Positions 35,731 to 52,385 of a DNA stretch of 64,000 nucleotides are shown here, one piece after another. Every line of letters begins with the position of its first letter. Position 1 is the stretch's first letter. The position numbers and the translations under genes were made by a program. The notes beneath the pieces were generated by a model. It had not been told where the DNA came from, did not search any database, and saw nothing but the letters and a program-made list of their open reading frames with translations. Source of the DNA: Zopfochytrium polystomum (lineage: Eukaryota; Chytridiomycota; Chytridiomycetes; Chytridiales; Chytridiaceae); the NCBI GenBank assembly GCA_025765615.1, contig JAIVFJ010000099.1, forward strand, positions 173,482-237,481, given 5' to 3'.

Positions 35731-36132
35731 CCTTGTGGTTAAATGTTTACAAAAAAAACTCTTCTTTGTGATATATTTATGACCATGTATTAGATTGTAT
35801 AAGACTTGTATAAGTTCTTATCGACTCATTGTATAAGTTCTTTTTTCTCTCACTTTCTAAGTTGAAGAAATCTAACTCTTTTGCAACCTTATTTATGGTC
35901 TTCTTTATTTATTTTATTATAATGCATAACTTCATCGTCTCTATGTATAGAAAAAAATCAAAAGTTCAATTTATCATTTTTATTTACTTTTGATTTTTAA
36001 AAAAAAAAAAGTAATAATTACAATACTGACAAGCATCAGTTTACAACAAAACATCGTACAAAGTCGAAACAATTGTACATTAGAATTTCTTAAACCATGT
36101 TGTCGACAGGTTTTCAATAAAACATCTCTATG

Positions 36133-36175
36133 AAAAACTTATACAAACTTATACAAACTTATACAAACTTATACA
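36133..36175. repeat. four tandem ACTTATACAA units
   Basis: A 10-bp unit repeated about four times. The complementary motif TGTATAAG(TT) occurs three times at 35795-35850, so transcripts across 35.8-36.2 kb could form stems. A single TTATCGACTCA lies at 35819. Confidence 0.8.
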
Positions 36176-36178
36176 TCA

Positions 36179-37485: not shown

Positions 37486-37498
37486 TGGTACCGAGAGG

Positions 37499-37570: not shown

Positions 37571-40535
37571 CTGTGCTGTGCCACACAATTCAAGAATTCT
37601 TGTCACCCCTTACTGTTGTTTTTTTTTTTTTAATTTTTTTTTTTTTTTTTTAGGGAAGTGGAGCTTTGCTTGCTGGTGATGTTTGAGTTACCCCTCTTTG
37701 CAAGCTCCTCCTCAAGCCTCATGTGCTGTGTGTCAAATTCTCCCTTGCTAGTGTGTTCCCACCAACTGGGCAGGATTAGGATGAGACAGCAGCATTACAC
37801 AGGACCAGTTCATTCAGTCCCACACACAGCAGTTGTGCTTTGCCATTTGCATCTCCTTCCCCACCACCACAAATCAGAAATTACAGAGAGAGAAAGAGAG
37901 AGACAAAGGGAAGAAGGGAGAGAGAAAGGATGAAGGTGGGTGGCTCACCCATCCCTCATCTCTCCCACTTTAGAGAGTGATAAGGCTTAACACTGCTCAA
38001 ATCAAATCCAAACAAGGTCCGATTTGGGTCTGATTCAAAAAATTGAATCAAATCAAATCAGATGGTTTTTTGCTGAATAAGCTGTTTCTCTTTGATTCAA
38101 AATTCTTCTCTGGTAATTTCTGTTCCATTTGGCGCAATTTGGCCAATCAAATGTCAGGTGTATTGCAAATATTCGTGATTTGTGGTTAAAAACTTACAGC
38201 GCTGTACTGAAAACCTCTTGTTTTCTCACCACCACAAATGCACTTTGTTTTCAATACAAAAGAAGAAAACATAAAAAATTATATTTTTTCTTTATTGATT
38301 TGCAAATGACATTGAGAAAAGGTGTGAAATGAGTGAGAAAAAAAAAGTTTTTCTGCAGCTAGCTGGAAAATAAATTGAGTCAAATTGCGGATCTAGCCAG
38401 AGTTAAACCCTACAGAGCAACTGCTCACCTATTCCTAAACCAAAACATTTGGGAACAGGAGAATGAATGAAAAAAGCCATAATCAGGGTCATGTGAGCTT
38501 GCCCCTCCAGGAGCAAAGCCTCGCGCTTGGAGGGAGAATTCTCACCTCTGACTCCAAAGTACCTGAAACGGCAACCACTGTATTCTGCCCACAGTGCACC
38601 CCTGCATGCGTTGTCCTCTAATTTGATGCCAAGCATGCCAGCAACTTGTGGTGCAAGGCGACAAATTGCTAATGTTGTTGGACACTTGGCTTTCTGCTTG
38701 TGATGCAGCAATTCCCCTCTGGCAGAGCAGCAGAGGTTACCACTAACCCCTTCCCACGTTTGATGATAATGTTGCTGAGCAGGAAAGGAAAGGCTAGGGT
38801 GGTGGCAAAAGAGGAATGTTCTGTCATTGAGCATTGCAAGAAGTGAAGGTGACACATGAATTAATCAGTGAAACCCTCGAACCAATTGTTGAACCACACC
38901 ACTCCCAATTAAAGGAGGACGAAGGCTGTGCCCCCCAGACTCGGAGCAGACTTCCATGAAAAACTGCCCAGCAACTGCAAATGCTTTGGCCCAAAAATGC
39001 CCTTTGTGATGTGGAGAATGCGGAGAAGTGCATTATCTGCATAATTTTGGGGCAGATTCTTCAAAAATAAAAATTAGGTCTCTGCGACCCACAAATACAG
39101 ATGTGTGCGGCCCTCTGCCACAGCAGACTTGCCATCCTGCAGAGTGGAGAGTGCAGATGTTGGCCAACAGCATTGGCGGTATGCAGCCTTACTGAGGACA
39201 CAATCTTGTTTTTGCACCCATTGTTCCTTGTCAACACCTGGGTTAAGGTGACAGACTCAAAATCTGTTACTCTCTGGGTGCACAGGTTTGAGTCCTGCCT
39301 TTTTCGACAAAGCAGGAGCAGGACTGAAGGGTACGTTAAGCTTGTTTGGCTGTTTGCACTTTTGGTTTAAATTGTTCCACCCTGAGTGTTTCTGCTGTGT
39401 TAACAGTCTACCCTGTGTGAGGGAGTAGAAGGAGTGAATGAAGTGGAGATGTGTATTTGTGGGTGGTCCTTCTCCCCAACTTGGAGAGAAAGAGAAAAAC
39501 TCTATTATGAACAATTGATACATGTTGATGATATGCAAGCTCTAATAGTTGCTAGGCGAGCATGACAGGCGCATGGTAAAAACTTCTCCTATATTGTCTG
39601 CTTGGGCAGAGGAGGAGGAAAACTGTTTACACTGGATTTCCCGTTGCACCATGTATTCGGAGTATTTGTAAACAGCACAAGCCAGCGCCCAGGTCTGCAT
39701 TGGCGGTGACTCACACTCCCCAGCCATCATGTAGAACAATAAAAGACAGTCACAATAGGTTCTGGTCTGTCTTGTGCCTCTTTTTGCTAAGCAGTCAGTT
39801 CCATCTTATATGCTGAAAATGCAGCAGAGCCTGAGAGCGCAACATTTTCCTTCAAGGTGTATGCAATTCACTTAACTTCTGTGAAAGCAGTGTGGAAGTC
39901 TCACAGGACAACCTACACCTGCGGACAATAGGTGTGCAACCCCACCGCAAGACTGTGTGCAACAATAGGGCCTAGCTGGTGGCAAAGGGATGAGAAAGAT
40001 CAGGTGGATGGATTGTGCAGCTTTGACCAAATGTGGTGGACAGCAGCTGCTGTATGGCTGCTTGCAAACAACCAACTGACAAGGATGCTCTCTGTGCTCA
40101 AAATACAATAAAGCAAAACCCCACCAAAAAGAAACACAAAAGTGAAGACATGCAAAACACGTGGGGAAACACCCAATTTCTCAAAAGGGTGCAACAAAGA
40201 AAGCGCCTGGAATGCATTGTTGGGGCTCGGGAGGGACACAGTGTGATAAGTCCTGCACAAACAAATCGAGCCAGGCCACGCAAATTGAGAGTTTGGATGT
40301 GATTCAGAATTGGGATCAAATCTAATCAAGCCATTTTGATATGAGATGTGTTTGTTGTTTGTATTCAGTCACACCACAGCGCCAAGTCAATCACATTGGA
40401 TGATATTCAAATCTTAACTAATTGATACACTGCAGAAGCCATGCAAAATCAGCCATTGGGGTATGGCTTGTGCTGCAGTCACTTTTGTCCTGCCTGAGCG
40501 CAGTTTCAAGTCTGCAACTCCAAGCAGTCCAATCT
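37571..40535. other. host-like, CpG-poor segment inside the element region
   Basis: Near 45-50% GC and strongly poor in CpG, unlike both the AT-rich element and the CpG-rich left host region. It has a T-run at 37618-37650, a GA tract near 37885-37930 and a tRNA relic at 39231-39308. Only short ORFs without domains are present. It resembles 32-33.5 kb and 52.5-53.2 kb. Confidence 0.55.
39231..39308 (+). pseudogene. decayed tRNA-Ser/Leu relic
   Basis: GGGTTAAGGTGACAGACTCA, AAATCTGTTA and ACAGGTTTGAGTCCTGCC align with tRNA-Ser(CGA) at 31292-31373. It has a short deletion in the D arm and G-to-A / C-to-T changes (CGA to CAA in the anticodon loop). The acceptor stem no longer pairs. Confidence 0.7.
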
Positions 40536-40536
40536 G

Positions 40537-40945
40537 ATCTGAGTGCGGAGCAAAGTCACGAGACGGAGGAGAAAGATGTGCGAAACACAGAGAGAAGAGG
40601 TTGCTGAGATTGCCAAACGAGATAATAAACATGATATTCGAGTACGTAGGAGAAGTGAAGATGAAAGGAAGTATAGATGAGAAGTTGAGAGTGGAGAGAG
40701 AGATGGGGATAAGAGTGGAGAGAGGAAGAGTGAAAGTGTCGAGAGCAGTGGAAAAGATGAAGAGAGAGGAGAATGAGTGGGAGAGAGAAGGGATACTGAC
40801 AAGACAGATAGTGATAAAGAAGAGGATATATTTGGTTGAAGAAAGAAGGAGAGTAGGAGAGAAGAGTGAATGGAGATACGGGATGTGGAGGGAGAGAAGG
40901 GGGAAGGATAGTGGAGAATGGAAGATAGAGTGGAGAGAAGAGTGA
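40537..40945 (+). pseudogene. cassette 1: 5'-truncated zinc-module + F-box-like gene
   Basis: In-frame reading from about 40537 gives the second half of the family's Cys/His module (GAKSRDGGERCAKHREKR) and then an F-box-like segment LPNEIINMIFEYVGEVK. A charged helical tail ends at 40945. The first Cys of the module and the promoter block are absent, because sequence left of about 40536 is the host-like segment. An ATG at 40601 could still give a 114-aa F-box-only protein. A well-formed hairpin follows at 40965-41009. Confidence 0.65.
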
Positions 40946-40964
40946 AGAGTGAAGAGGAGAGAAA

Positions 40965-41009
40965 AAAAGCTCTTAGCATTGCAGCCAGCAGTGCTAAGAG
41001 CTTTTTTTT
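40965..41009 (+). terminator. cassette hairpin 1
   Basis: AAAGCTCTTAGCATTGC pairs with GCAGTGCTAAGAGCTTT (one wobble), loop AGCCA, then T8. The outer arm (CTCTTAGCA) differs from most other cassettes but pairs fully. Confidence 0.85.
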
Positions 41010-41025
41010 ATGAAAGTGGAGAGAA

Positions 41026-41328
41026 GAGGTCACGTGAAGGAGAAGGTCTTGGCGTAGAAAAATTGAAAATTGAGATCGAGAAAGAGGAGGTCACGTGCCA
41101 AAGCAAGGAAGAAAAGAAGAGGTCTTGGCGAAGGGCACGTGACAGTGAAGAGAAGAGAAAGGTCACGTGACAGTGAGGGTCTTGGCGGAGAAGAAACTGA
41201 ATTTTTGTGAGATGTAGTCGAGGAGTGTGAAGAGAAACAAAGAAGGTCACGTGACAGTGTGAAGAGAAAGAGAAAAGTCTTGGCGTAGAAAAAATTGAAT
41301 TGCGAGAGGATTTCTGAGGAAGCAAAAG
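41026..41328 (+). promoter_or_regulatory. cluster of four promoter-like modules before cassette 2
   Basis: GTCTTGGCG occurs at about 41046, 41122, 41179 and 41277. CACGTG cores (GGTCACGTGA or variants) lie at about 41028, 41089, 41135, 41161 and 41245. The last two modules also have the TTGAATT/TGAATTTTTGTGAG block. This looks like stacked promoter remnants, as if cassettes were lost between cassettes 1 and 2. The CACGTG palindrome is the fungal Cbf1/bHLH consensus; TTGGCGG-A-rich is E2F-like. Both assignments are by similarity only. Confidence 0.6.
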
Positions 41329-41796
41329 ATGAAGTGCGAGTACGAGTACAAAAGAGGAAAGAAGAAGGGAACCGAGTGTGGAAGGAAGTGCTGGGAGAAG
41401 AGGTGTGGGATGCATGGAGGGAAAGAAGAGTGTTATGTGTGTTACGGGACGATAAAGATGAGAGAGGAAAACGTAAAGACGCATTGTTGTGGACACAGGA
41501 GTCACAAGAAGTGTTACAAAGAGTGGATGAAACATGGAGAGAGGTGTGGATATTGTGGGAGTGAGTGGAAGAAAGCAGAAGGAGTGGAAGAGAAAGTGTT
41601 GTATGAACTAGTGGAGATGCTAGGAGAGAAAGCAGTAGAGATAGCCGAATATGTGGAGGACATAGCGAAAAGGACGAATCCAGCGATAAACGAAGGGGAA
41701 CTGCAATTGATAAAAGGAGAGTTGAGAGAGTATTTTAAGAACAGACCATACAGAAAAAGAAAAGTATACGAGATAGTAGTAAGTGTGGTGGATTGA
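41329..41796 (+). CDS. cassette 2: zinc-module + RING-finger protein, 155 aa
   Basis: Starts MKCEYEYKRGKKKGTECGRK with the Cys/His module (C-x10ish-ECG-x(6)-KRCGMH). A RING-like finger follows: ECYVCYGTIK, then HCCGHRSHKKCYKEW and ERCGYCGS (C-x2-C ... H-C-C-x-H-x2-H-x2-C ... C-x2-C). A helical C-terminus follows (NEGELQLIKGELREYFKNRP). RING fingers commonly recruit E2 enzymes, so an E3 ubiquitin ligase role is plausible. Paralogue of cassette 5. A conserved hairpin follows the stop. Confidence 0.75.
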   Translation: MKCEYEYKRGKKKGTECGRKCWEKRCGMHGGKEECYVCYGTIKMREENVKTHCCGHRSHKKCYKEWMKHGERCGYCGSEWKKAEGVEEKVLYELVEMLGEKAVEIAEYVEDIAKRTNPAINEGELQLIKGELREYFKNRPYRKRKVYEIVVSVVD

Positions 41797-41813
41797 GAAG
41801 AGAAAAGTAAGAG

Positions 41814-41857
41814 AAAGCCCTTAGCGCTGCAGCCAGCAGTGTTGAGGGCTTTTTTTT
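41814..41857 (+). terminator. cassette hairpin 2
   Basis: AAAGCCCTTAGCGCTGC, loop AGCCA, GCAGTGTTGAGGGCTTT, then T-run. Relative to hairpin 6, the ATAG/GTGG pairing is replaced by TTAG/GAGG: a paired change (A-T to T-A) in the outer stem. Confidence 0.85.
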
Positions 41858-41863
41858 ATGAAA

Positions 41864-41962
41864 GGTCACGTGACATAGCAGTAGAAGAGAAAGTGAATGT
41901 GAGAGTAGAGGAGAAGTAGAGAAAGGTCTTGGCGGAGGAAAAAAATGAATTTTGTGAGGACA
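41864..41962 (+). promoter_or_regulatory. cassette 3 promoter block
   Basis: GGTCACGTGAC at 41864, then GGTCTTGGCGGAGG at 41925 and AATGAATTTTGTGAGGAC ending near 41961, 18 bp before the ATG. Confidence 0.6.
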
Positions 41963-41978
41963 GAGAGCGGAAGAAAGG

Positions 41979-42336
41979 ATGTGTGACTACGAGTTAAAGA
42001 AAGGAGTGCGAAAAGGACAAGTGTGTGGAGTAAAGTCGCGTGATGGGAAGGAAAGGTGTGGGAGACACAGGGAGAAGAAAAAGGAGGAAAAGGTGGAGAT
42101 GGGGAGAGTTGCCAATGGAGATAAAGATGATGGTGATGAGTTTTGTGAGGTGGAAAGAAGTGAGAGGGAGTGTAGATGAGAAACTGAGATTTGAGAAAGA
42201 GACAGGAATGAGAATGAAAAGAGGAAAGGTGGAGGAGACAGAGAACGTAAAGAGATGTGTGAAGGAAAAAGGAATGGTATACAGATTGTTTGAAAAAGAA
42301 GAAGAGACAGTGTTGGATATATTTGGATGGGGTTGA
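41979..42336 (+). pseudogene. cassette 3: zinc-module + F-box-like gene with a frameshift
   Basis: MCDYELKKGVRKGQVCGVKS ... ERCGRH opens the frame at 41979. After about 42100 the family's continuation (LPMEIKMMVMSFVRWKEVRG, VDEKLRFEKETGMRMKRGK) is in another frame and runs to 42336. A single-base indel near 42095-42105 separates them. Both halves match cassettes 4 and 10. It could be a recent pseudogene or a sequence error. Confidence 0.7.
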
Positions 42337-42352
42337 ACAGGAGGAGAGAAAG

Positions 42353-42396
42353 AAAGCTCTTAGCGCTGCAGCCAGCAGTGTTAGGAGCTTTTTTTT
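42353..42396 (+). terminator. cassette hairpin 3
   Basis: AAAGCTCTTAGCGCTGC, loop AGCCA, GCAGTGTTAGGAGCTTT, T-run. Outer arm CTCTT pairs with AGGAG (one wobble). Confidence 0.8.
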
Positions 42397-42415
42397 ATGA
42401 CAGTAAGTGGAAAGA

Positions 42416-42450
42416 GGTCTTGGCGGAGGAAAAAGTGAATTTGTGAGGAC
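42416..42450 (+). promoter_or_regulatory. cassette 4 promoter block
   Basis: GGTCTTGGCGGAGGAAAAAG followed by TGAATTTGTGAGGAC, 16 bp before the ATG. No CACGTG palindrome is present here. Confidence 0.55.
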
Positions 42451-42466
42451 TTTGTAGAGAGCAAAG

Positions 42467-42895
42467 ATGTGTGACTACGAGTTCAAACGAGGAGCCAAGA
42501 AAGGAACAGTGTGTGGAGTGAAGTCGCGTGACGGGAAGAAAAAGTGTAGTAAACACAGAAAGGGAGAGGAGAAGGAGAAGATAGTGATGAAGTTTCCGAT
42601 GGAGATAGTGGGGATGATAATGAGATATATGGGAGAAGTGAAGTGGAGTATAGAAGAGAAGTTGAAGTGGGAAAGGGAGACGGGAATAAAATTGGAAAGG
42701 GGAAGAGTGGAGGTGAAAGAAGAAGTGAAGGAAAGTATAAGGTGGAAGAGTTGGTCGATGAGGAGAGAAGGGATGGCAGAAATATGGGAAGAAAGGGATG
42801 GAAAAAGGATGAATATGACAGTGAGGGGAATGAAGTGTATGAAACTGATAGAAGAGGTAGGAAGGAATTTGAGAGGAACATACATGGTAATTTGA
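42467..42895 (+). CDS. cassette 4: zinc-module + F-box-like protein, 142 aa
   Basis: N-terminal Cys/His module MCDYEFKRGAKKGTVCGVKS ... KKKCSKH (residues 1-30). The F-box-like segment is MKFPMEIVGMIMRYMGEVK (about 40-60). A helical heptad stretch IEEKLKWERETGIKLERGRV and a Lys/Glu/Met-rich tail follow. F-box motifs bind Skp1 in SCF ubiquitin ligases; the module here keeps the P-x-E-I and hydrophobic spacing but is divergent. The N-terminal half is nearly the same as in cassette 10 while the C-terminal parts differ. Confidence 0.7.
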   Translation: MCDYEFKRGAKKGTVCGVKSRDGKKKCSKHRKGEEKEKIVMKFPMEIVGMIMRYMGEVKWSIEEKLKWERETGIKLERGRVEVKEEVKESIRWKSWSMRREGMAEIWEERDGKRMNMTVRGMKCMKLIEEVGRNLRGTYMVI

Positions 42896-42900
42896 GAGAG

Positions 42901-42932
42901 AAAGCCCATAGCATTGCAGTGTTGTGAGCTTT
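42901..42932 (+). terminator. cassette hairpin 4, degenerate
   Basis: AAAGCCCATAGCATTGC joined directly to AGTGTTGTGAGCTTT: the apical AGCCAGC is deleted and the T-run is gone. The only cassette hairpin that has lost its core. Confidence 0.7.
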
Positions 42933-42940
42933 GCCGAACG

Positions 42941-42990
42941 AGGTCAAGTGAAAAGTCTTGGCGGAGAAGAAATTGAATATTGTGAGGACA
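42941..42990 (+). promoter_or_regulatory. cassette 5 promoter block
   Basis: AGGTCAAGTGA (one base from the palindrome) then GTCTTGGCGGAGAAGAAATT and GAATATTGTGAGGAC, 17 bp before the ATG. Confidence 0.6.
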
Positions 42991-43006
42991 AGTGAGAGAG
43001 CAAAGG

Positions 43007-43480
43007 ATGTGCGACTACGAGTTCAAACGAGGAAAGAAGAAGGGAAAGGTGTGTGGAGTGAAGTCGAGAGATGGAGGAGAAAGGTGTGCGAGACACAGAG
43101 AGGAGGAGAGAGAAGAATGTTATGTATGTTACGGGACGATAAAGAAGAGAGAGGAGAGTGTAAAGACGCATTGTTGTGGACACAGAGGACACAAGAAGTG
43201 TTACAAAGAATGGATGAGACATGGAGCGAGGTGTGGATATTGTGGGAGTGGATGGAAGGAAGCAGAAGGAGTGGAAGAAAAAGTGATGGAAGAGATAGCG
43301 GAACTGGGAGAGAAAGGGAGGAAAATAGCGGGATATGTGGAGTGGAGTTCAAAAAGAATGGACCCACCGCTAAACGAAGGAGAACTGCAATTGATAAAAA
43401 AAGAATTGGGGAAATATTTTAAGAACAGACCATTCAACAAACAGAAAGTGGTGGATATAATAGAGAGAGCGGTAAATTGA
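43007..43480 (+). CDS. cassette 5: zinc-module + RING-finger protein, 157 aa
   Basis: Starts MCDYEFKRGKKKGKVCGVKS ... ERCARH, then ECYVCYGTIK, HCCGHRGHKKCYKEW and ARCGYCGS form the RING. The C-terminus (NEGELQLIKKELGKYFKNRP) is shared with cassette 2. The ATG at 43007 is chosen over 42992 because it aligns with MCDYE starts of the other cassettes. Intact. Likely role: E3 ubiquitin ligase-type protein (inference from the RING). Confidence 0.78.
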   Translation: MCDYEFKRGKKKGKVCGVKSRDGGERCARHREEEREECYVCYGTIKKREESVKTHCCGHRGHKKCYKEWMRHGARCGYCGSGWKEAEGVEEKVMEEIAELGEKGRKIAGYVEWSSKRMDPPLNEGELQLIKKELGKYFKNRPFNKQKVVDIIERAVN

Positions 43481-43495
43481 AGAGATGGTGTGAGA

Positions 43496-43550
43496 AAAAG
43501 CCCTATCATGAGCATTGCAGCCAGCAGTGTCCATGATAGGGCATTTTTTT
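43496..43550 (+). terminator. cassette hairpin 5, longest stem
   Basis: GCCCTATCATG pairs perfectly with CATGATAGGGC around the standard core GCATTGC-AGCCA-GCAGTGT; one A-C mismatch interrupts the about 19-bp stem; T7 follows. The outer 11 bp are quite different from the other hairpins yet fully complementary, which is strong evidence that pairing itself is selected. Confidence 0.88.
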
Positions 43551-43561
43551 ATGAAAGTGCG

Positions 43562-43621
43562 AGGTCACGTGACTTGAAATAAAATTTTCTTGGCGGAAAA
43601 AAAACTGAATTTTGTGAGGAC
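43562..43621 (+). promoter_or_regulatory. cassette 6 promoter block
   Basis: AGGTCACGTGAC, then TTTTCTTGGCGGAAAAAAAA and CTGAATTTTGTGAGGACTTG, 15 bp before the ATG. The TTGGCGGAAAA here is the closest to an E2F site apart from cassette 11. Confidence 0.65.
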
Positions 43622-43637
43622 TTGTGAAGGGCAAAGG

Positions 43638-43988
43638 ATGTGCGACTACGAGATACAGAAAGGAGAGCGAAAAGGACAAGTGTGTGGAGTAAAGTCGAGG
43701 GAAGGGAAAAAGTGTGGGAAACACAGAGACAAGAAAGAGAAAGTGTATGGAAGAATGCCAATGGAGATAGTAAGAATGATAATGAAGTATATAGAGGTGA
43801 AAGATGATGCAGCGAAAGTGATAAAATTGGAGAAACAACTGGGAATGGAGTTAAAAAGAGGAAAGGTGGAAGGAAAGGTGAGAGTGAGAAAGTGTGTGGA
43901 GAATAAAGTGATATTGTACAAAGAGTATGAGTTTAGGAATACGGCGGTGGGAATGAGAAGTGTGATGGCAGGAAAGGTATGGTTTTAA
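43638..43988 (+). CDS. cassette 6: zinc-module + F-box-like protein, 116 aa
   Basis: MCDYEIQKGERKGQVCGVKS ... KKCGKH, then F-box-like MPMEIVRMIMKYIEVKDD, then a charged helix (VIKLEKQLGMELKRGKVEGK) and a short tail. Intact. Same plan as cassettes 3, 4 and 10. Confidence 0.7.
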   Translation: MCDYEIQKGERKGQVCGVKSREGKKCGKHRDKKEKVYGRMPMEIVRMIMKYIEVKDDAAKVIKLEKQLGMELKRGKVEGKVRVRKCVENKVILYKEYEFRNTAVGMRSVMAGKVWF

Positions 43989-44008
43989 GTGAAGAGAAAA
44001 TGTAAGAG

Positions 44009-44052
44009 AAAGCCCATAGCGCTGCAGCCAGCAGTGTTGTGGGCTTTTTTTT
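44009..44052 (+). terminator. cassette hairpin 6
   Basis: AAAGCCCATAGCGCTGC, loop AGCCA, GCAGTGTTGTGGGCTTT, T8. All stem positions pair, with three wobbles. This is the commonest version (also 7, 9 and 10). Confidence 0.88.
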
Positions 44053-44054
44053 AT

Positions 44055-44233
44055 GAGATCCGGGAAAGGAGACACTAGGATCGGAAAGTGAGACGTATCA
44101 AGTGACATATGACAAAAAGACGGGAAAACACAAGTGGGAATACAGAGGAATAAATATATATGAAAATTCAAGGATATATCCAGGAGCCATGACCAAAGAA
44201 GAAATATGGAGATGGCGAGCGCGATACGAGTAA
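44055..44233 (+). pseudogene. cassette 7: 5'-truncated duplicate of cassette 11
   Basis: Starts abruptly after hairpin 6 with no promoter and no ATG, and matches 47337-47516 almost base for base. The reading frame runs through ETYQVTYDKKTGKHKWEYRG and TKEEIWRWRARYE to a TAA at 44231. This copy has three Gs where cassette 11 has four (GATCCGGG-AAAGG), and it keeps one continuous frame. Confidence 0.75.
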
Positions 44234-44252
44234 GAAAGAGAGAATGTAAGAG

Positions 44253-44296
44253 AAAGCCCATAGCGCTGCAGCCAGCAGTGTTGTGGGCTTTTTTTT
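44253..44296 (+). terminator. cassette hairpin 7
   Basis: Identical to hairpin 6 in stem and loop, with T8; part of the duplicated segment. Confidence 0.85.
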
Positions 44297-44315
44297 ATGG
44301 TGGTTTTTAGAACGA

Positions 44316-44393
44316 GGTCACGTGACTTTGGGTATGTCGGGGATGGGCGGGGGGAAGATGTCTTGGCGGAGGAAAAAGTGAATTTTGAGAGGA
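44316..44393 (+). promoter_or_regulatory. cassette 8 promoter block
   Basis: GGTCACGTGAC at 44316, TATGTCGGGGATGGGCGG at about 44333, TGTCTTGGCGGAGG at about 44359, then AAAAAGTGAATTTTGAGAGG, about 20 bp before the ATG. This is the fullest version of the shared layout. Confidence 0.65.
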
Positions 44394-44414
44394 CTTTGAG
44401 AGAGGAAAAAGAGA

Positions 44415-45114
44415 ATGATACAGAGAATGCCAAATGAAATTGTGGACATGATATTTGAGTATATAAATCCAGGAGACATAAATGGAAGCATTGATGAAAT
44501 ATTAAAATTGGAAAAAGAACTAAACAGATACTTTGGAAGAAAGAAAGTAACGCCGGGACCGGGAATAAGCATGAAGAAAAGGAAGGGGAAGAATATAAAA
44601 GTGAATGGTGTCAGGAACAGGGCAGGACAGGACTAGGCAGACAAGGAACTGAGAGGAGTGATGATTGTATTGGAAACAATAATTCACTTGAGGGATGGGA
44701 CAGGTCCCCCATCCCCCTTTTATACATTTTGAGAGTGTTCCTTGTCAAGACTCCAAGAAAGTTCCAGAAAGAGCAATTAGTAATGCAATGATACCAATGA
44801 TACCAATGACAACAAGACAAGTCAGGAAAGCAAAGAAGGTTCCAGAAGGTTCCACAAGGTTCCATGAAGGAATGTTCTAGAAGGTTCCAGAAGGTTCCAG
44901 AAGGTTCCATGAAGGAATGTTCTGGAAGGTTCCAGAGGTTTCCAGAGGGTGATTCATAACAAATGGGAAGATGTGTCGAATAACATTTACGATAAGAGGG
45001 AAAGTATTGTCAAGGTGGGATGGAGCATTGGATCCGAGTTATACAGTGAAAAGAATGGAAATAGTGACAAGATATGATGGAGATGAATATGAACACAGTG
45101 CACATACATGGTAA
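44415..45114 (+). pseudogene. cassette 8: F-box-like gene split by a solo LTR
   Basis: Starts MIQRMPNEIVDMIFEYINPG (F-box-like, no Cys/His module) and runs to 44608, where a solo LTR (44609-44961) with its 5-bp duplication begins. Past the LTR and the second AATGG, the same frame resumes at 44967 and stays open to TAA at 45112-45114. The coding sequence was therefore intact when the LTR inserted. The resumed part ends EIVTRYDGDEYEHSAHTW, resembling the cassette 7/11 C-terminus in composition. Hairpin 8 follows. Confidence 0.8.
44609..44961. mobile_element. solo LTR (353 bp) with AATGG target duplication
   Basis: Begins TGTCAGGAACA and ends TTCATAACA (TG...CA). Flanked by AATGG at 44604-44608 and 44962-44966. 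Contains a TTTTATACATTTTGAG stretch and repeated AAGGTTCCAGAAGGTTCC units. A second copy of the family lies at 60694-61009. These are hallmarks of an LTR retrotransposon reduced by LTR-LTR recombination. Confidence 0.92.
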
Positions 45115-45131
45115 GGTGGTGTGTGTAAGAG

Positions 45132-45174
45132 AAAGCCCATAGCATTGCAGCCAGCAGTGTTGTGGGCTTTTTTT
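45132..45174 (+). terminator. cassette hairpin 8
   Basis: AAAGCCCATAGCATTGC, loop AGCCA, GCAGTGTTGTGGGCTTT, T7, then AATGG instead of ATG. Same stem as hairpin 6 with an A for G change converting one wobble to a pair. Confidence 0.85.
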
Positions 45175-45194
45175 AATGGCGGTTTTTAGGACAA

Positions 45195-45276
45195 GGTCAC
45201 GTGACAGTGGAGAGAGAAAGGTGGTGCGAAAAGTCAAGTCAAGCAATTGAATGTGGTGTGTCGGGAATGGGCGGGA
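45195..45276 (+). promoter_or_regulatory. cassette 9 upstream block
   Basis: GGTCACGTGAC at 45195 and GTGTCGGGAATGGGCGGG at about 45259, but no GTCTTGGCGG block before the ATG at 45347. The gene that follows is also the odd one in composition. Confidence 0.5.
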
Positions 45277-45346
45277 TAATGATGTTAAGGAAAAAATGAA
45301 TAATGGATGTTAAGATAAAAAATGAAAAAAGAGTGGGAAGAAAAAG

Positions 45347-46243
45347 ATGGAAAAGAAAAAGATGGATTTACCAAGAGAGATATGGTATATGATAGGGATA
45401 TATTATGGGAAACCACTAGGAGTAGCAGTGTCAAAAAACTCAATAATAAATACAAATACGTTCAAAATACAAGTATTAAAATATAATTTTGGAGATGAAG
45501 AAGAAATAATAAATAAAGGAGGAATGCAAATGAATGAAGAGATATTGGAATACTTTATGAAAAGATGGAAAGCGAAACCAGAAAAAAAATATACAATAGT
45601 AATAAGACATTTATTAAAGCATTCGAATAATAGTGAATTATTAAAAGAATATATAACGAAACGAGGGATAGGACCATTTGGTCAAAAATTTAGTTATTCA
45701 GGGTGGGATACAAATGAATATTTTGGAAGAGAACGATTTAGGGAAGAGGTGGAAGATGTGGTGAAAGCGAAATACGAGGAAATGTCAAAAACATATATAT
45801 CACATTTTAATATAGATTACATATATCTTTCGGACGTAATTGTGGAAAAATGTGTAGAACACAATAAAAAAGAACTGTTGGAATATGTATTAGAGGAAGG
45901 AGCATCACCATTTGGGGATCTTATTTACTTTTGGAATAAATATGGCATAGTATCAAGAACATTGAAATCAGACGAAATAGCAGAAGTATTAAAAAAGCAT
46001 GCAATGAGGCCAAATGCGATAGAAAGACACATTGAAAGATACGGGAAAAAACATAACAATATGACTGATATTGAATGGGAAGATTATTACAAAAGATTCT
46101 TAAGAGCAACACTAGAATGGGATTTTAAAGAAGAGAATACAATAGTATGGAGGAAAATGAAAGAAGAAACGCTGAATATGATAATAGCGAATGAGATAAT
46201 AGAAAGTGAAATAAGAAATGAATTAAGAGAAAATGAGATCTGA
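45347..46243 (+). CDS. cassette 9: F-box-like / ankyrin-like protein, 298 aa
   Basis: F-box-like N-terminus MEKKKMDLPREIWYMIGIYY. It is followed by helical repeat pairs of ankyrin-like spacing, e.g. IVIRHLLKHSNNSELLKEYI, YLSDVIVEKCVEHNKKELLE and YVLEEGASPFGD. F-box plus ankyrin repeats is a common effector layout in large DNA viruses, where the repeats choose the substrate for SCF. It is more AT-rich than its neighbours and lacks both the GTCTTGGCGG block and a hairpin after the stop, so it may have been captured separately. Confidence 0.6.
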   Translation: MEKKKMDLPREIWYMIGIYYGKPLGVAVSKNSIINTNTFKIQVLKYNFGDEEEIINKGGMQMNEEILEYFMKRWKAKPEKKYTIVIRHLLKHSNNSELLKEYITKRGIGPFGQKFSYSGWDTNEYFGRERFREEVEDVVKAKYEEMSKTYISHFNIDYIYLSDVIVEKCVEHNKKELLEYVLEEGASPFGDLIYFWNKYGIVSRTLKSDEIAEVLKKHAMRPNAIERHIERYGKKHNNMTDIEWEDYYKRFLRATLEWDFKEENTIVWRKMKEETLNMIIANEIIESEIRNELRENEI

Positions 46244-46255
46244 AAATGATGGTGT

Positions 46256-46312
46256 TGTCGGGAATGGGCGGGGGGTCTTGGCGGAGGAAAAACTGAATTT
46301 TGTGAGGGCTTA
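46256..46312 (+). promoter_or_regulatory. cassette 10 promoter block
   Basis: TGTCGGGAATGGGCGGGG fused to GTCTTGGCGGAGGAAAAA and CTGAATTTTGTGAGGGCTT, 18 bp before the ATG at 46330. No CACGTG here. Confidence 0.62.
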
Positions 46313-46329
46313 GTAGAAAAGCATCGGAA

Positions 46330-46938
46330 ATGTGTGACTACGAATACGTGAAAGGAGCCAAGAAAGGGACTGTGTGTGGAGTAAAGTCGAGGGATGGAAA
46401 GGAAAAGTGTAGTAAACACAGAAAAGGGGAGGAGAAGGGAGTGGAGAAGGGAGTGGAGAAGAAGGTGGTGAAGGAGGTGATAAAGAAAGAGGTGATGAAG
46501 TTTCCAATGGAGATAGTGGGGATGATAATGAGATATGTGGGAGAAGTGAAAGGGAGTATAGATGAGAAGTTGAAGTGGGAAAGGGAGACGGGAATAAAAC
46601 TGGAAAGGGGAAGAGTGGAGGTGAATGAAGAAGTGATGAAAAGGAGGGAAATGTGTGAAACATGGGAAAAAAAGGGAGGAATAATGATAAGTTTGACAGT
46701 GAAATGTGAGAAATGTAAGAGAAGTAAGAGATTGATGGTGGAGTGTCCAGAGTATAATAAAAGGATGGACGTGATAAGAATGGAAGGAGAGGAGGAGTAT
46801 GAGAGGGAGTACAAATTGATGGCGTGGACCGGTTTGGGGTGGGGTCCAAAACGAGAGGAAGGAGATGATGCGAATGAGTGGAAGAAGCGAGTGAGAGAGT
46901 GGAACGACTGGTTCAGCGAGACATTTCTTTTTATCTAG
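46330..46938 (+). CDS. cassette 10: zinc-module + F-box-like protein with extra Cys knuckle, 202 aa
   Basis: MCDYEYVKGAKKGTVCGVKS ... KEKCSKH module, then a Lys/Val/Glu insertion (KGVEKGVEKKVVKEVIKKEV), then F-box-like MKFPMEIVGMIMRYVGEVKG. A charged helix and a distinct C-terminus follow, with KCEKCKRSKRLMVECPEYNK (possible second zinc site) and a Trp-rich end. The first half is close to cassette 4 at the DNA level, so shuffling of 5' and 3' halves is likely. Intact. Confidence 0.7.
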   Translation: MCDYEYVKGAKKGTVCGVKSRDGKEKCSKHRKGEEKGVEKGVEKKVVKEVIKKEVMKFPMEIVGMIMRYVGEVKGSIDEKLKWERETGIKLERGRVEVNEEVMKRREMCETWEKKGGIMISLTVKCEKCKRSKRLMVECPEYNKRMDVIRMEGEEEYEREYKLMAWTGLGWGPKREEGDDANEWKKRVREWNDWFSETFLFI

Positions 46939-46963
46939 GAAAAAAATGAGAGAATGGAAAGAG

Positions 46964-47007
46964 AAAGCCCATAGCGCTGCAGCCAGCAGTGTTGTGGGCT
47001 TTTTTTT
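46964..47007 (+). terminator. cassette hairpin 9
   Basis: Same stem-loop as hairpin 6 (AAAGCCCATAGCGCTGC / GCAGTGTTGTGGGCTTT) followed by T8. Confidence 0.88.
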
Positions 47008-47026
47008 ATGACAGTTATTAGAACGA

Positions 47027-47078
47027 GGTCACGTGACAAAGTCTTGGCGGGGAAAAAATTGAATTTTTATCGGACTTT
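47027..47078 (+). promoter_or_regulatory. cassette 11 promoter block
   Basis: GGTCACGTGAC at 47027, GTCTTGGCGGGGAAAAAATT at 47041, then GAATTTTTATCGGACTT. TTGGCGGGGAAAA is E2F-like. Confidence 0.62.
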
Positions 47079-47116
47079 GGTGGAGAGCACAGAGACCAGC
47101 GAAAGAGAAAAGAAAG

Positions 47117-47516
47117 ATGAACAGCATTAAGAAGGGAAAGAACAAGGGCAAGGGACAGAGTGAAATTGAAATTGAAATTGATGAAAGGTTCTCGAGTCCA
47201 ATAGGATGGGTAGATCCGACGGAAGTGCCACTAGGAAAAATAATAAACCATTACCAGACGGTACTTGATGATGATGATGATCCAGTGTGGAGATTGATGA
47301 AGGGGTTATCAGAGGAAGTATTAAAGAAGAAACTAGGAGATCCGGGGAAAGGAGACACTAGGATCAGAAAATGAGACGTATCAAGTGACATATGACAAAA
47401 AGACGGGAAAACACAAGTGGGAATACAGAGGAATAAATATATATGAAAATTCAAGGATATATCCAGGAGCCATGACCAAAGAAGAAATATGGAGATGGCG
47501 AGCGCGATACGAGTAA
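47117..47516 (+). pseudogene. cassette 11: frameshifted gene, unknown product
   Basis: MNSIKKGKNKGKGQSEIEIE is followed by an acidic helical region (VLDDDDDPVWRLMKGLSEEV) up to about 47342. One extra G in the run at about 47343 (four Gs against three in cassette 7) ends the frame at 47374; the other frame continues to TAA at 47514-47516. No Cys/His module or F-box is present. Without the indel the product would be about 133 aa, basic at both ends. Function is unknown. Confidence 0.65.
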
Positions 47517-47609
47517 GAAAGAGAGAATGTAAGAGAAAGCCCATAGCGCTGCAGCCAGCAGTGTTGTGGGCTTTTTTTTATGGCGGTTTTTAGAACGAGG
47601 TCACGTGAC
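47337..47609 (+). repeat. segmental duplication, copy B (with 44055-44326)
   Basis: See the match with 44055-44326. This copy is attached to the full-length 5' half of the gene, so it is probably the source. Confidence 0.85.
47536..47579 (+). terminator. cassette hairpin 10
   Basis: Same as hairpin 6, T8. The last hairpin of the array; the D5 pseudogene begins 104 bp later. Confidence 0.88.
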
Positions 47610-47640
47610 CTTCGGGTGGTATGTCCGGAATGGGCGAGGG
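47599..47640 (+). promoter_or_regulatory. cassette-type upstream block before D5 copy 2
   Basis: GGTCACGTGAC at 47599 and TATGTCCGGAATGGGCG at about 47620, without GTCTTGGCGG. It shows the helicase gene shares regulatory sequence with the cassette array. Confidence 0.5.
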
Positions 47641-47682: not shown

Positions 47683-48780
47683 ATGGAAGACATAAGTGAA
47701 GAACTTTTATTAAACAATATCGATAGTTATTATGACATGCATAAATGTTTCAAAGGGAAATTTGTATATACTTCCACCAAAAAAGAACATCTTACACACA
47801 TCAATGGTGGTACTACGACAATTCTGATGGTATGTGGAAAAAAGATGTCAATAAATTAAAAGTGACTATTTTCTTGAATAATATTTTTCCAACTGTTTAT
47901 CTCCATTTAAAAGACAAATACAATGATCGTCCTGAAATTGTTAAAAAAATAAATGACAGATTAAATGAACTAAAACCTCTTGTCAAACGAGATATTATAG
48001 GTAATGCACAAATAGCATGGTTCAAGGAGGATTTTGAAGAACGATTGGATTCAAACTCTGAGTTCATTCCTTTTAAAAATGGAACATATCATCTTAAAGA
48101 TAAATGTTTCAAACCTTTCAGTAAAGATGATTACTGTTCAAAAAGATTAAGTTACGATTATGATGAAAATATTAATACAACTAGATTTGAAAAATTTTTA
48201 AAGGAAATTGTTCCTGACAGAAACATTCGTGAATACTTGAAAAAATCTATGAGTCATGCTCTCTACCATACTGGTCAAAAGTATTGTTTATTTGAGTGGA
48301 CCTGGTGGTAAGAAACTTGTAGATCTAATGATTAAAGCATTTGAATTCAGTTCATATGAACTACTAGGTGATGAAATCATTAAAGCTGATAGAAACTACC
48401 CTCGTCCTAACGATCACTTGTTTTATCTCAAAAAGAAGAAATTTGCGTACATGACAATGTCTCCATATTATATGGCTAGTGGTACTATTCAGAGATATTT
48501 GAACTTGATAAGTGATAAAAGTATTCCTTTAACTCTTCCACGTAAAGGCGATGTAACTATTAAAGTGCATTCAAAAGTGTTTGTGTTGTGTGACACTTTA
48601 CCAGAATTATACTTTAATCGACGTGCAAAAGCTATACACACAAATGATTCTGAACTGGACTTAGATTCAGATTACTATATAAAAGCTTTAATGAAAATTA
48701 TGATTCAATACTATCATAAGAATGTTAAAGAGCCTGAATCAGTCAAACGAGAAGCTCCATTTAATAGACCACGAGTTTAA
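47683..48780 (+). pseudogene. broken D5-type primase-helicase, copy 2
   Basis: Start ATG at 47683 (MEDISEELLLNNIDSYYDMH) aligns with the intact gene start at 63530. The frame then shifts near 47770-47800 to WWYYDNSDGMWKKDVN and FIPFKNGTYHLKDKCFKPFS, typical of the D5 N-domain. It shifts again near 48290 to YLSGPGGKKLVDLMIKAF, where Walker A has lost the G-N/S-G-K spacing. Later parts (AYMTMSPYYMASGTIQRYLN, KVFVLCDTLPELYFNRRAKA) follow the helicase plan with weakened motifs. Non-functional as an ATPase by inspection. Confidence 0.78.
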
Positions 48781-49404: not shown

Positions 49405-49869
49405 TTATTTCTCATACATAAAGTAAAGGAGAAAACAATATGAGAAACATAGTAGAAACAAAACGAAATCATAGGACCATAGCAGAATAAAAAATAATTG
49501 GGTATCTTTTGGAGTGAACATTGAGAAAAACAAATAATAATACCAAAACGGCCACTGGATTCCCAATAATTGGACAAAATTACAACACCAATTTATGATA
49601 ATCACCAAATATAGCAATTTTAACCGGAAAAAAAAACCAATATACTTGTTGTTGACCTTGATAACAAAGATGATGAATATAGTGCAAAAAAGTGGTATGA
49701 ACAAAACATAAAAACCGCTGTCAGAAGAAGATACATTTATAACACAAACATTTTCAGGTGAGACACCATATATACTTTCAACATCCAGTATGTGACTTTC
49801 CAAGTTAATGTAAACGTAAAATATCATATAGATATTCTGGCAAATGAGAAATGTTGTTTTGAAGGACAA
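49405..49869 (-). CDS. possible small multi-pass membrane protein
   Basis: Open frame rich in Phe/Ile/Leu/Tyr with about four hydrophobic spans (e.g. VLFIPLFCTIFIIFVIKV, LLYLVIIINWCCNFVQLL). No homologue is recognised. Part of it overlaps the primase-helicase frame on the other strand (49792 onward), so the true start would lie further in. Hydrophobic ORFs arise easily in AT-rich DNA, hence low confidence. Confidence 0.3.
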   Translation of the reverse strand: MSFKTTFLICQNIYMIFYVYINLESHILDVESIYGVSPENVCVINVSSSDSGFYVLFIPLFCTIFIIFVIKVNNKYIGFFFRLKLLYLVIIINWCCNFVQLLGIQWPFWYYYLFFSMFTPKDTQLFFILLWSYDFVLFLLCFSYCFLLYFMYEK

Positions 49870-51839
49870 GGTTACAAAATTATAAATAATAAACCATTAC
49901 GAAAATTAACAATTGAAGAAATTAATAAATTAAAGAGTCTTTCACCAAATAATAATATTAGAAAAGACACAGATACTATCTCTGAGGCTGGAACATTTGT
50001 AAATGAAAGTGACAGTGATAAAATCAAAATCACATGTGAAGAGGAAAATCAAATCAAAGATTTTCTTGGTGAAAAATTTGATATAGCTGAAAATGATATA
50101 GAGACAATATTTTTGGATAAAAAATAAGAACATTATTATTATATCAACATCATTGAAGAGATGCTTTTATTACAATAAATTAAATAATGGAATATTAAAA
50201 CCATATGATCATAACAGTCAACATCAATATTTTACATTAACAGAAACACATTTGAGAAGAAAATGTCACGATCCATCATGTAATACTGAAGAAATGGATT
50301 ACAGAGAGATAAAATACGAGAATTTCACAAATGAGATTAAGGCTATTGTAGAAAGACGACTTAAATGCACAGTAAGCATTGATCCAGAATTAAGAGAAAA
50401 AATTAAAAGCGGTGGTTTTACAGAAGATGATACAGCACATCTTGTAATGGAGCTGGTGAAGAACAAGTATTTTTTTTTTAGATAAATGGTATTATTTTAA
50501 TAATATAAGTTGGAGAACAGATAAAGGTGCTTCTATATGGCAAGAAATTGTTAAAACAAAAACAATCTATGAAAATTTAAGAGATAAATGTAATGATCAT
50601 GATAAGGATAGAATAAAAAAGTATAACAGAATAATTGAGCTACTTGGATCATATGGTTATAAATCGAATATTAGGAAAATTTTGGAAAATGAATTATATG
50701 ATAAAGAGGAAGCATTTTACAATAAGTTAAATAAAAACAAAGATTTAATACCATTTACAAATGGAACATATGATATGAAATTGAAACTATTCAGAGAATC
50801 ACGACATGATGATTTTTTCACAATGTCAACTGGGTATGAATATAATCCTGATGTAGATACAAGAAAAGTTATGAAAGTTATCGAGCAAATAATTCCAAAT
50901 GAAAAAATTAGAGAGTACATGCTAAAACGTATGAGTGATTGTTTAAATCCTAGAATAGGAAATAGAAGGATTATATTTATGATTGGTCCAGGGGGATCAA
51001 ATGGAAAATCACAACTTTTAAATTTAATGAAATTTACGATAGGAGAATTTGGTTACGCATTGGATCCAAGTGCTATCACAAAAATTAAGGGGAATGCTGC
51101 AGCTGCAACACCACACTTGGTTGCACTTAAGGATATGAGATTTGCATGTATGAGTGAACCTGAAGAAAACGATAGAATAAATGGGGGTGTAATCAAACAA
51201 ATTTCGGGAGGTGATGTATTGGCAGTTAGACAACTATTTAAACCACAAGAAAACATGGAACTTCATGCAAAGTTATTCTTGGCCTGTAATAAATTACCTG
51301 ATATATGTGGAGAAGATTCTGCAATTTTCAGAAGAGTAAGAGTTGTTGAATTTACGAGCAAGTTTGTTGATAATCCAGATCCTAACAATCCTAATGAATT
51401 CAAAATTGATTCGGATCTCAATGATAAAATTAAAGATGATGTAACTTGGAGACAAGCCCTTTTGAACATATTAATAGAATACTTGGACAAAAAAGTTCCT
51501 GTTCCAGAAGAAGTAATGTCAAGAACATTAAGATACAAGAATGAAAACGATTTATACGCAAATTGGGTTAATGACAATTTAGAAAGAGTAGACCCGAACG
51601 ACAAAAAAATCAATGATGTGAAACTATTTGTTAAAGATGTACATTTCCATATGAATGACACAAGTGTGAAGATGAGTGTGGTTCAAAAAGCATTAGAAAG
51701 AGTGTTTACTGATAAGTGGGGGAGTAGTGTGGATTGGAAAGCCAAAAAAATTAGAAAATCAGAAAAAGTTGGCATGGGATGGATAGGTGTTAGATTTAAA
51801 ATTTGTGAAGAAGACATTATGACTCCTGAAGACTTTTAA
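49792..51839 (+). pseudogene. primase-helicase (Prim-Pol end + D5 helicase), copy 3, frameshifted
   Basis: Most complete copy. 49792-50127 has the C-terminal end of an AEP/Prim-Pol-like domain (YHIDILANEKCCFEGQGYKI, PLRKLTIEEINKL). 50153-50485 has a zinc-type segment (ETHLRRKCHDPSCNTEEMDY). From 50481 a single frame runs to 51839. It holds FIPFTNGTYDM-type D5_N sequence (here IPFTNGTYDMKLKLFRES), Walker A IGPGGSNGKSQLLNLMKF, Walker B region LKDMRFACMSEPEENDRING and sensor LFLACNKLPDICGED. An arginine-finger-like IFRRVRVVEF and a C-terminal winged-helix-like tail follow. The helicase part has every key residue. The frame changes lie at about 50130 and in a T9 run at 50471-50479. The primase active-site half is missing upstream. 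Confidence 0.82.
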
Positions 51840-51867
51840 AATTAAAATGTTCCAAAATGTTTTTTGA

Positions 51868-52385
51868 GTGTTTTTATCGACTCAACGTTAAAAAAAAAAT
51901 CAATAGAGGTATCACAAAACGTGTCATAAATTAAAATGTTCCAAAATGTTGTTTTTTATCGACTCAAGAGAGTTTTTTGGAAAGAGATTTTTGTATAGAA
52001 AAATCAAAAGTTTTTATAAATAAGGCTTATCAAAAATTTTGACACAAGTGGATAAAAACTACATTTTTGGAACAACCATTTTTATGACGATGAATGTGTC
52101 AGTGAAGTTTGAAAAACATAAATGAAACGAGTCGATAAAAAAAGTCAAAAATAAAAATGGAACAATTAAAAACAAGTCGATAAAATATGGTGATGTAATA
52201 CGAAAAATTCTACTAATTAAGTCGATAAGAAATACTCAAAACAGAAATGGAACAAAGTGAAACGAGTCGATAAAACATGGGTGTGAAATACATAAATTAT
52301 GATTTAACGGGTCGATAAAAATGTTCATAAAAAAAATGGAACAATTAAAAATGAGTGGCAATAAAATAAATTTGAGTCGATTAAA
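51868..52385. repeat. cluster of GAGTCGATAAAA motifs (iteron-like)
   Basis: TTTATCGACTCAA occurs at about 51875 and 51957 in one orientation. Then (G)AGTCGATAAAA variants in the other orientation occur at about 52129, 52173, 52217, 52265, 52308 and 52375, spaced 40-65 bp in the last 300 bp. The interval is otherwise non-coding. The layout resembles binding-site iterons of an origin or of a transposase/initiator at an element end. Confidence 0.65.

Follow-up and report, generated by a model that had tools for sequence, protein, structure and literature searches.

Layout of the cassette array

The DNA described here is a stretch of 64,000 nucleotides (nt), called the window, from the genome of the chytrid Zopfochytrium polystomum (Chytridiales). 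The whole genome (80.2 Mb in 761 contigs, cited by C-numbers) was searched as well. Positions 40,537–47,610 of the window hold an array of 11 cassette units, all on the plus strand. The typical cassette has a promoter-like block, a short open reading frame (ORF) and a stem-loop with a T tract behind the stop codon. A first, sequence-only reading had proposed this array with its coordinates, parts and single strand, and a base-by-base check found all parts present on the plus strand. It had also spoken of about eleven cassettes in a standard frame. The number stands, while the frame is incomplete in some units, five of the 11 are damaged and an ORF of 298 residues has no hairpin.

Comparison with other copies gives the order of units as S1, R1, F2, F3, R2, F4, a stub of N1, F5, X, F6 and N2. 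The six intact ORFs are R1, F3, R2, F4, X and F6. F5 is split by a solo long terminal repeat (LTR), and the other four damaged units are truncated or frame-broken. There are nine full hairpins and one degenerate hairpin. The same stretch of about 30 Cys/His-rich residues opens six of the 11 units, so the common part extends into the proteins. The features are as follows.

40631..40945, plus: unit 1 (slot S1), remnant of an F-box-like ORF with a disrupted start region
40962..41018, plus: hairpin 1 with T8; 78 bits in the covariance model, fold −25.7 kcal/mol
41029..41285, plus: promoter-like blocks ahead of unit 2, with several E-boxes CACGTG and repeats of TCTTGGCG
41329..41796, plus: unit 2 (slot R1), RING protein of 155 residues, intact; PF13639 E 6.9e-6, 26.7 bits, cut-off 27.3
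41810..41866, plus: hairpin 2, 82.4 bits
41979..42336, plus: unit 3 (slot F2), F-box-like, frame broken
42349..42405, plus: hairpin 3, 81.1 bits
42467..42895, plus: unit 4 (slot F3), Cys/His N-terminus and F-box-like, 142 residues, intact
42897..42939, plus: hairpin 4, degenerate, without loop core or T tract; 28.4 bits, −10.7 kcal/mol
43007..43480, plus: unit 5 (slot R2), RING protein of 157 residues, intact; PF13639 29.6 bits, cut-off 27.3; RING E3 chains in PDB (profile A6)
43493..43559, plus: hairpin 5, long-stem type; 41.8 bits, −30.4 kcal/mol
43638..43988, plus: unit 6 (slot F4), F-box-like, 116 residues, intact
44005..44061, plus: hairpin 6, 78.2 bits
44056..44233, plus: unit 7, 3' stub of slot N1 (tblastn, residues 158–227 of N1)
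44249..44305, plus: hairpin 7, 81.8 bits
44415..45114, plus: unit 8 (slot F5), F-box-like, with the solo LTR inside
44609..44961, no strand: solo LTR, 353 bp, with a 5-bp AATGG repeat on both sides; 99% copies elsewhere, and the place on C118 lacks the insert
45128..45184, plus: hairpin 8, 79.2 bits
45347..46243, plus: unit 9 (X), 298 residues, extra cassette lacking its own hairpin; not at this place in C147
46330..46938, plus: unit 10 (slot F6), F-box-like, 202 residues, intact
46960..47016, plus: hairpin 9, 83.2 bits
47117..47516, plus: unit 11 (slot N2), frame broken
47532..47588, plus: hairpin 10, 82.3 bits

The coding strand of 40500–47600 shows an extreme purine excess (GC skew up to 0.66), accompanied by long antisense ORFs that are probably spurious. 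At 46330–47374 the public gene model P0121 spans the hairpin and joins F6 and N2 into one gene; proteins deposited for this family may therefore be artefacts of annotation.

The 3' hairpin and the cassette boundaries

The hairpin core GCAGCCAGCAGT occurs at nine sites in the window, every one in the array and on the plus strand. The nine full hairpins have stems of 16–18 pairs, an AGCCA loop in each and seven or eight T (T7–8) at the foot. The covariance model finds 22 matches in the window. Ten of these are array hairpins on the plus strand; eight score at least 78 bits, and those at 43493 and 42897 score 41.8 and 28.4 bits. The rest are ten weaker minus-strand echoes and two matches with E ~0.8 near 34.4 kb. 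These two aside, the hairpin was not found in the window outside the array, either by the model or by a structural scan for at least 13 pairs, a 5-nt loop and six or more T, which gives eight matches, all in the array and none on the minus strand. In the cut-out region the scan gives seven (one at the edge), against none in each of 200 dinucleotide shuffles. Nine of ten stretches have folding energies between −25.7 and −30.4 kcal/mol (z from −5.9 to −8.4), and the degenerate hairpin folds at −10.7 kcal/mol (z −1.6). An Rfam search of 40–48 kb gave nothing near the gathering score.

The hairpin covaries. Across 61 distinct copies (a 62nd candidate, on C60, was dropped as no hairpin), 95.5% of the cells of the 15 pairs are paired. 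Changes on both sides of a pair number 84, against a shuffled mean of 20.7 and a maximum of 38, in controls that keep the relatedness of the copies. A set of 38 copies, chosen by hand from the 61 with long-stem forms and several weak ones excluded, pairs at 97.9% and holds 36 both-side cells against 11.0 in shuffles (0 of 500 as high). Each slid register of the stem is far worse in this set. Two of its five measures are not clearly above the shuffles, namely pairs with both-side change (47 of 500 as high) and further pair types (436 of 500).

Cassette geometry was measured in 12 array segments, the window and eleven on eight other contigs, with 52 open ORFs. Open here means a frame without a stop codon across 85% or more of a slot reference, which admits the S1 remnant of the window and two rear N1 parts labelled N2. 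A hairpin lies within 400 nt after the stop codon in 46 of the 52, further off in five and nowhere in view in one. From stop codon to loop the median of the 46 is 37 nt, and the middle half spans 34–38 nt. TTGGCGG lies within 200 nt upstream of 40 ORFs; its median distance to the matched ORF's start is 49 nt. An AATAAA or ATTAAA motif follows the stop codon of only one ORF, the hairpin-less one. In nine of the 12 segments the distance from loop to next CACGTG is 48 or 49 nt for 39 of 69 hairpins, and 15 have no CACGTG within 200 nt downstream. Given this spacing, a cassette's end and the start of its successor mostly make up a single module.

Such palindromes might have been miniature inverted-repeat transposable elements (MITEs) that spread into intergenic spaces, with the regular frame as a by-product. 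MITE-like hairpin repeats are found in pandoraviruses and pithoviruses. The account in PMC10664404 describes pithovirus genomes as shaped by palindromic repeats. The cassette hairpins are likewise palindromic, intergenic and present in many copies, and one isolated copy of the same type (46.6 bits; stretch L166, 1341–1399) lies upstream of the C421 array in opposite orientation. In the arrays read, however, the hairpins are in sense orientation to the ORFs at the narrow distance from the stop codon given above, the loop is conserved, the stems covary, and no such hairpin was found in the window outside the array. By position and orientation the hairpin is not a MITE, and we give this origin hardly any credence.

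Among the promoter-like blocks, exact GTCACGTGAC has eight sites in the window, all in 41162–47609, and TCTTGGCG has 12 on the plus strand, 11 of them within the array. The TGTC..GGATGGGCG-type block is present at four places, three of them ahead of array units, and a leader is present in five units by a loose pattern. Over the 80 Mb the 22-nt promoter block has 93 sites (50 forward, 43 reverse; control 0 and 0), and 83 lie on contigs that also bear a D5_N match. The finding named at the outset as refuting, hairpin and promoter blocks genome-wide without ORFs between them, was not made. C292 and C374 carry four blocks each and no D5_N match. Alone, GTCACGTGAC has 251 genome sites against 92 for its reversed control, some on contigs without listed arrays, and is therefore not element-specific. 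By resemblance, GTCACGTGAC may be a Cbf1/USF-like site and TTGGCGGGAAA an E2F-like site.

Each cassette would be its own transcription unit. The shared 5' block (E-box CACGTG, TTGGCGG and an A-rich stretch, about 49 nt before the ATG) would start transcription, and the stem-loop with its AGCCA loop and T7–8, about 37 nt past the stop codon, would end the mRNA. Terminator and following E-box would make up a boundary module of about 50 nt. The nearest known arrangement is the 'hairpin rule' of Mimiviridae and Marseilleviridae, where a palindrome near the stop codon is reported to mark mRNA 3' ends (PMC4402537, PMC5413956). The cassette stem-loop, as seen in the sequence, also stands behind the stop codon, and by analogy the array may function as a series of separate viral genes, each with a hairpin on its 3' side. 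In contrast to the mimivirus palindromes, which are not sequence-conserved, the cassette loop and inner stem are nearly fixed and T7–8 follows; this hairpin type is also seen only with cassette genes. The T-rich 3' signals of poxviruses and asfarviruses, described without a hairpin in the account of PMC4402537, are similar in the T stretch, but the cassette T tract follows a hairpin. The class-specific 3' hairpin of the array is unusual.

Alternatively, the stem-loop may be an mRNA processing or stability element, such as a histone-like stem-loop or an RNase III cut site, rather than a terminator. The invariant loop sequence, needless for a plain terminator, favours this, and giant-virus transcripts are reported to be cut and polyadenylated in their 3' hairpins (PMC4402537, PMC5413956). 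The pure T7–8 that adjoins the foot of the stem, an arrangement known from U-tract terminators, argues the other way, and mimivirus hairpins are reported as not sequence-conserved (PMC4402537). Processing is compatible with the rest of our interpretation, and we keep it as a serious possibility, if not the expected one.

Cassette proteins and changes in the arrays

The ORFs differ while the frame around them is kept, as had been proposed. In three arrays the median amino acid identity between ORFs is 27–32%, and median identity between hairpins is 79–85% of 33 nt. Slot R2 matches the RING family PF13639 at 29.6 bits, over the Pfam cut-off of 27.3, and slot R1 at 26.7 is just under it. A profile of R1 and R2 matches RING E3 chains in PDB. 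Most other slots have a short, F-box-like helix of LPxEIxxxI type. Among ten proteins tested, the front part of the F-box is matched by three and PRANC by two, with one protein in both groups; every match is below cut-off, and the best PRANC score is 14.3 bits against a cut-off of 25.8. A Pfam scan of cassette proteins found no ankyrin repeats. For unit X, 509 candidates out of 5.8 billion proteins were scored, and none is a homologue at E 0.001. The cassette profile has 13 homologues at E 0.001 or better, every one of them from Z. polystomum. At the sensitivity used, the cassettes appear lineage-restricted.

Poxviruses are reported to carry several short-F-box and RING proteins (PMC9414399, PMC8695901), and those with shortened F-boxes to bind Skp1/Cul1 still (PMC9414399), which makes an F-box reading of the cassette proteins reasonable but unproven. 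RING and F-box-like cassette proteins resemble this set, with the difference that those scanned have no ankyrin repeats by Pfam. Some cassette proteins are probably parts of ubiquitin ligases. Most of the proteins have the Cys/His N-terminus in common and are different after it, with a RING in two slots and a short F-box-like helix in most others. They may direct the host's ubiquitin ligases at selected targets in the host, like the poxvirus F-box/RING proteins. The cassette genes had been called effector genes, a word that we use in a presumptive sense. Over the Pfam cut-off, RING is found in one slot and F-box in none of the slots tested.

Purifying selection, expected by the sequence-only reading, is seen between copies within the one genome. 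Pooled pN/pS is 0.36 over 21 disjoint same-slot pairs, against a median of 0.75 and a minimum of 0.58 in 300 neutral simulations. The two rear N1 parts are excluded here; with them the value is 0.37 on 22 pairs. The test took open ORFs only, and the constraint may predate insertion. Slot by slot, F4, N1, N2, S0, R1, R2 and F3 are below at least 293 of the 300 simulations.

Duplication, as had been proposed, is seen in C75, where four cassettes form a tandem copy of 2.47 kb, 99.4% identical, which starts in coding sequence common to N1 and N2. Cassette X of the window stands between two shared promoter blocks (the E-box/TGTC block) and is missing at this place in C147; a relative, 77% identical in DNA, is in the second array on C118. 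Badly mispaired hairpins, with fewer than 13 of 15 pairs, number three of 61, and all three combine arm pieces of two types. The proposed swapping of ends is borne out by these chimeras, as read by eye on the alignment. The clearest case to describe is C421, in which slot R2 is missing. Its hairpin has a left arm of F3 type and a right arm of R2 type, the switch lies within an identical 20-nt core, and further switches follow in the promoter. These few damaged hairpins suggest that genes may be lost or exchanged at the hairpin. An 'expanding library' of genes, by contrast, is not what the copies show; slot order is largely conserved among them, so the greater part of the array has been inherited, and decay has set in over much of it.

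In form the array resembles integron cassettes: an ORF with a structured end (a hairpin follows most open ORFs), one orientation, and gain and loss of cassettes. An element enzyme could then recognise the hairpin core and move cassettes site-specifically. The loss of R2 in C421 with its switch inside the core fits such a system, and so do the three mispaired hairpins, all of which look like arm chimeras. The other breakpoints do not; they lie in the E-box/TGTC block (X) and in the coding sequence shared by N1 and N2 (C75), and the C421 junction switches again in the promoter. Breakpoints in several shared blocks imply that shared sequence suffices for exchange. Unlike integrons, most cassettes also have their own promoter-like block (TTGGCGG, with 40 of the 52 open ORFs) and a largely conserved order. 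The tyrosine recombinase family PF00589 has five matches in the genome (C34, C261, C360, C417, C308) and none on array contigs, in agreement with the earlier remark that no integrase is seen. The likeness is one of form only, and a site-specific system of this kind is very improbable.

Homologous recombination between shared blocks explains all junctions seen. It would act at boundary modules and N-termini because these are alike, and could delete, duplicate or insert whole cassettes and swap hairpin arms. A preference for the hairpin core is possible from the three cases. In a wider version the hairpin would have two roles, as the class-specific 3' end, non-polyadenylated or hairpin-processed, of a ubiquitin-ligase effector regulon, and through its fixed apical core as a preferred cassette junction, with cutting out and joining via a cruciform or via template switching by the element's own replicase. 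We consider this double role unlikely. If true, it would be a eukaryotic cassette system in which the terminator doubles as exchange site.

The virus-derived element and its copies

The virus-like element suggested as carrier of the array is supported by D5, Prim-Pol and polymerase-helicase genes alongside. Behind the array lie the following.

47600..47637, plus: E-box and TGTCCGGAATGGGCG block ahead of the D5 gene
47683..48780, plus: D5_N primase-helicase-like gene (intact copies 363–365 residues), frame broken in the window; D5_N E 4.8e-15
49562..51955, plus: Prim-Pol/D5/DUF5906 replicase gene (Pfam), frame broken; 92% to the C75 and C12 copies

The element is present many times. The 15-nt hairpin core, with at most one mismatch, has 76 forward and 70 reverse places in the 80 Mb, against 1 and 2 for the control. 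Among 100 of these 146 places listed, 88 have the TTG or CTG form (one, on C60, is no hairpin), and 12 are other variants, mostly singles on array-less contigs. Array-type cores lie on at least 18 contigs in this list, of which 16 also have D5_N (C104 and C119 do not). Slot order is largely the same across the 12 segments read. A D5 gene is in view behind the array in nine. In the other three none is in view: the C554 stretch ended first, and C12 and C118 have one such segment each. Across the genome D5_N matches number 67, several of them in the window, and are spread over 38 contigs. The TGTC..GGAATGGGCG block stands upstream of D5 genes in many copies and also ahead of the polymerase-D5 gene. 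Other genes of element stretches have Prim-Pol, PriCT-2, D5_N, DUF5906, NADAR and LRR domains by Pfam.

The arrays sit in fungal contigs, and RING and F-box families expand in eukaryotes, so an ordinary host gene family amplified by segmental duplication, with no viral origin, was considered. The AT-rich island with uninterrupted ORFs speaks against this, as do the D5 gene behind the array in nine of 12 segments, the TGTC..GGAATGGGCG block shared with D5 and polymerase-D5 genes, and the lack of homologues outside Z. polystomum at the sensitivity used. We judge a purely host origin improbable.

The polymerase-D5 protein of 781 residues has six metagenomic relatives (P0001–P0006) of the same layout, with 37–39% identity over 89–97%. 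Its N-terminal part and D5 layout presumably correspond to a TV-pol replicase. As a single query this protein gave no match in viral contigs; an alignment gave eight loci there, covering residues 304–781 or less (the rear, D5-bearing part), hairpin-free by the model. The 14-mer core has one match per contig among the 80 matches listed in viral contigs. The only VLTF3 match in the genome (C340:1080, E 3.8e-32) shares its contig with two promoter blocks and two D5 matches. Capsid_NCLDV gives one match of 53 positions, on C206, with a control that gave no match anywhere. Virion genes are nearly absent, so the label 'virus' rests on the replication genes and one VLTF3. We call the element virus-derived and leave its family unassigned.

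Virophage, polinton-like and transpoviron replicases are similar in having an N-terminal part fused to a D5 helicase, with the difference that no capsid gene was seen in the element proteins scanned here. We know of no accessory arrays of this kind in those elements. Asfarviruses share with the array the tandem arrangement of multigene families. Core genes of nucleocytoplasmic large DNA viruses (NCLDV) are reported in Gonapodya, Rhizophagus and Allomyces (PMC5294986). Like such endogenous giant-virus elements, the present one brings D5-type genes into an early-diverging fungus, is invaded by transposable elements and is decaying; unlike them, it has many copies of one module and almost no virion genes found.

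In our judgement the array probably holds the accessory genes of an element that is derived from a virus, exists in many copies and is decaying; the cassettes would be separate transcription units with a class-specific 3' hairpin, changed by homologous recombination. A Prim-Pol/D5 and polymerase-D5 replicase element would have been inserted many times into the Z. polystomum genome and would now be decaying. Several results weigh against this interpretation. The F-box is found only below cut-off (best E 0.04, 14.3 bits against 20.5); a PDB profile search with the F-box-like slots gave no F-box, its two matches (E 0.24 and 0.44) not being meaningful, and an AlphaFold model of an F-box-like slot was unusable (mean pLDDT 45.6). 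Constraint is not clear for F5 (36 of 300 simulations as low), F6 (57) and V1 (19), and is not seen for F2 (no synonymous change) and F8 (1.06). Slot order has exceptions: F2 precedes F3 in the window and C118 and follows it in C12 and C25, and N2 and V1 also change places, V1 being first in C75. Ten of the 93 promoter blocks are on contigs without a D5_N match (C4, C292, C350, C374). The sole VLTF3 match lies outside the array copies read; Capsid_N has no match in the genome, with a control that gave none anywhere, and the packaging ATPase A32 has none either. A search of large-DNA-virus assemblies had been suggested at the outset; the covariance model finds the hairpin in none of eight viral contigs, and a 30-nt pattern in no IMG/VR contig, though this pattern fixes an initial TTG and one right arm and misses many forms. 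The core replication genes themselves are without the T-tract hairpin. Among 13 ends of seven other gene kinds, only three D5 ends beat 40 of 40 shuffles, with a stem of another kind, in a scan that did not cover loops over 29 nt and so missed a long palindrome behind a nuclease gene.

That palindrome (34377–34474) is conserved behind the same nuclease-like gene on C118. It belongs to a second element piece on the minus strand, 33574–37492, where a nuclease-like ORF at 34459–35127 gives no Pfam match above cut-off and a D5 fragment shows 97% identity to C118:5849–6670. A third virus-like gene stretch runs from 61955 to the window end at 64000, with a D5_N match at the very end; within it we take 62557–63396 to resemble T5orf172/GIY-YIG proteins, with no such Pfam match. 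Adjoining the element, an ORF of 1148 residues at 53270–56716 has about ten WD40 repeats and a front that we assume to be NACHT-like; similar repeats stand beside the C147 copy. One LTR family is present twice in the window (44609–44961 and 60693–61010), and a pair of the same family frames gag-pol-like ORFs at C118:54515–59820.

Searches of viral contigs, proteins and literature found no such cassette arrays outside the Z. polystomum genome, and none of the papers that the literature search listed treats arrays of this kind or elements of large DNA viruses in Zopfochytrium. With the array, promoter-ORF-terminator units of rigid layout are available as a natural series in a eukaryote, and the hairpin is a testable new candidate for an mRNA 3'-end signal. 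Array-type cores on many contigs of one genome allow the loss, gain and duplication of cassettes to be followed at single-base resolution. C340, with VLTF3, D5 and promoter blocks, is where a more complete set of viral genes would best be sought. For the organism, the element makes one more fungus, a chytrid, with much virus-derived DNA, of which few fungal cases are known, and the cassettes would provide lineage-restricted candidate ubiquitin-ligase effectors aimed at a chytrid.

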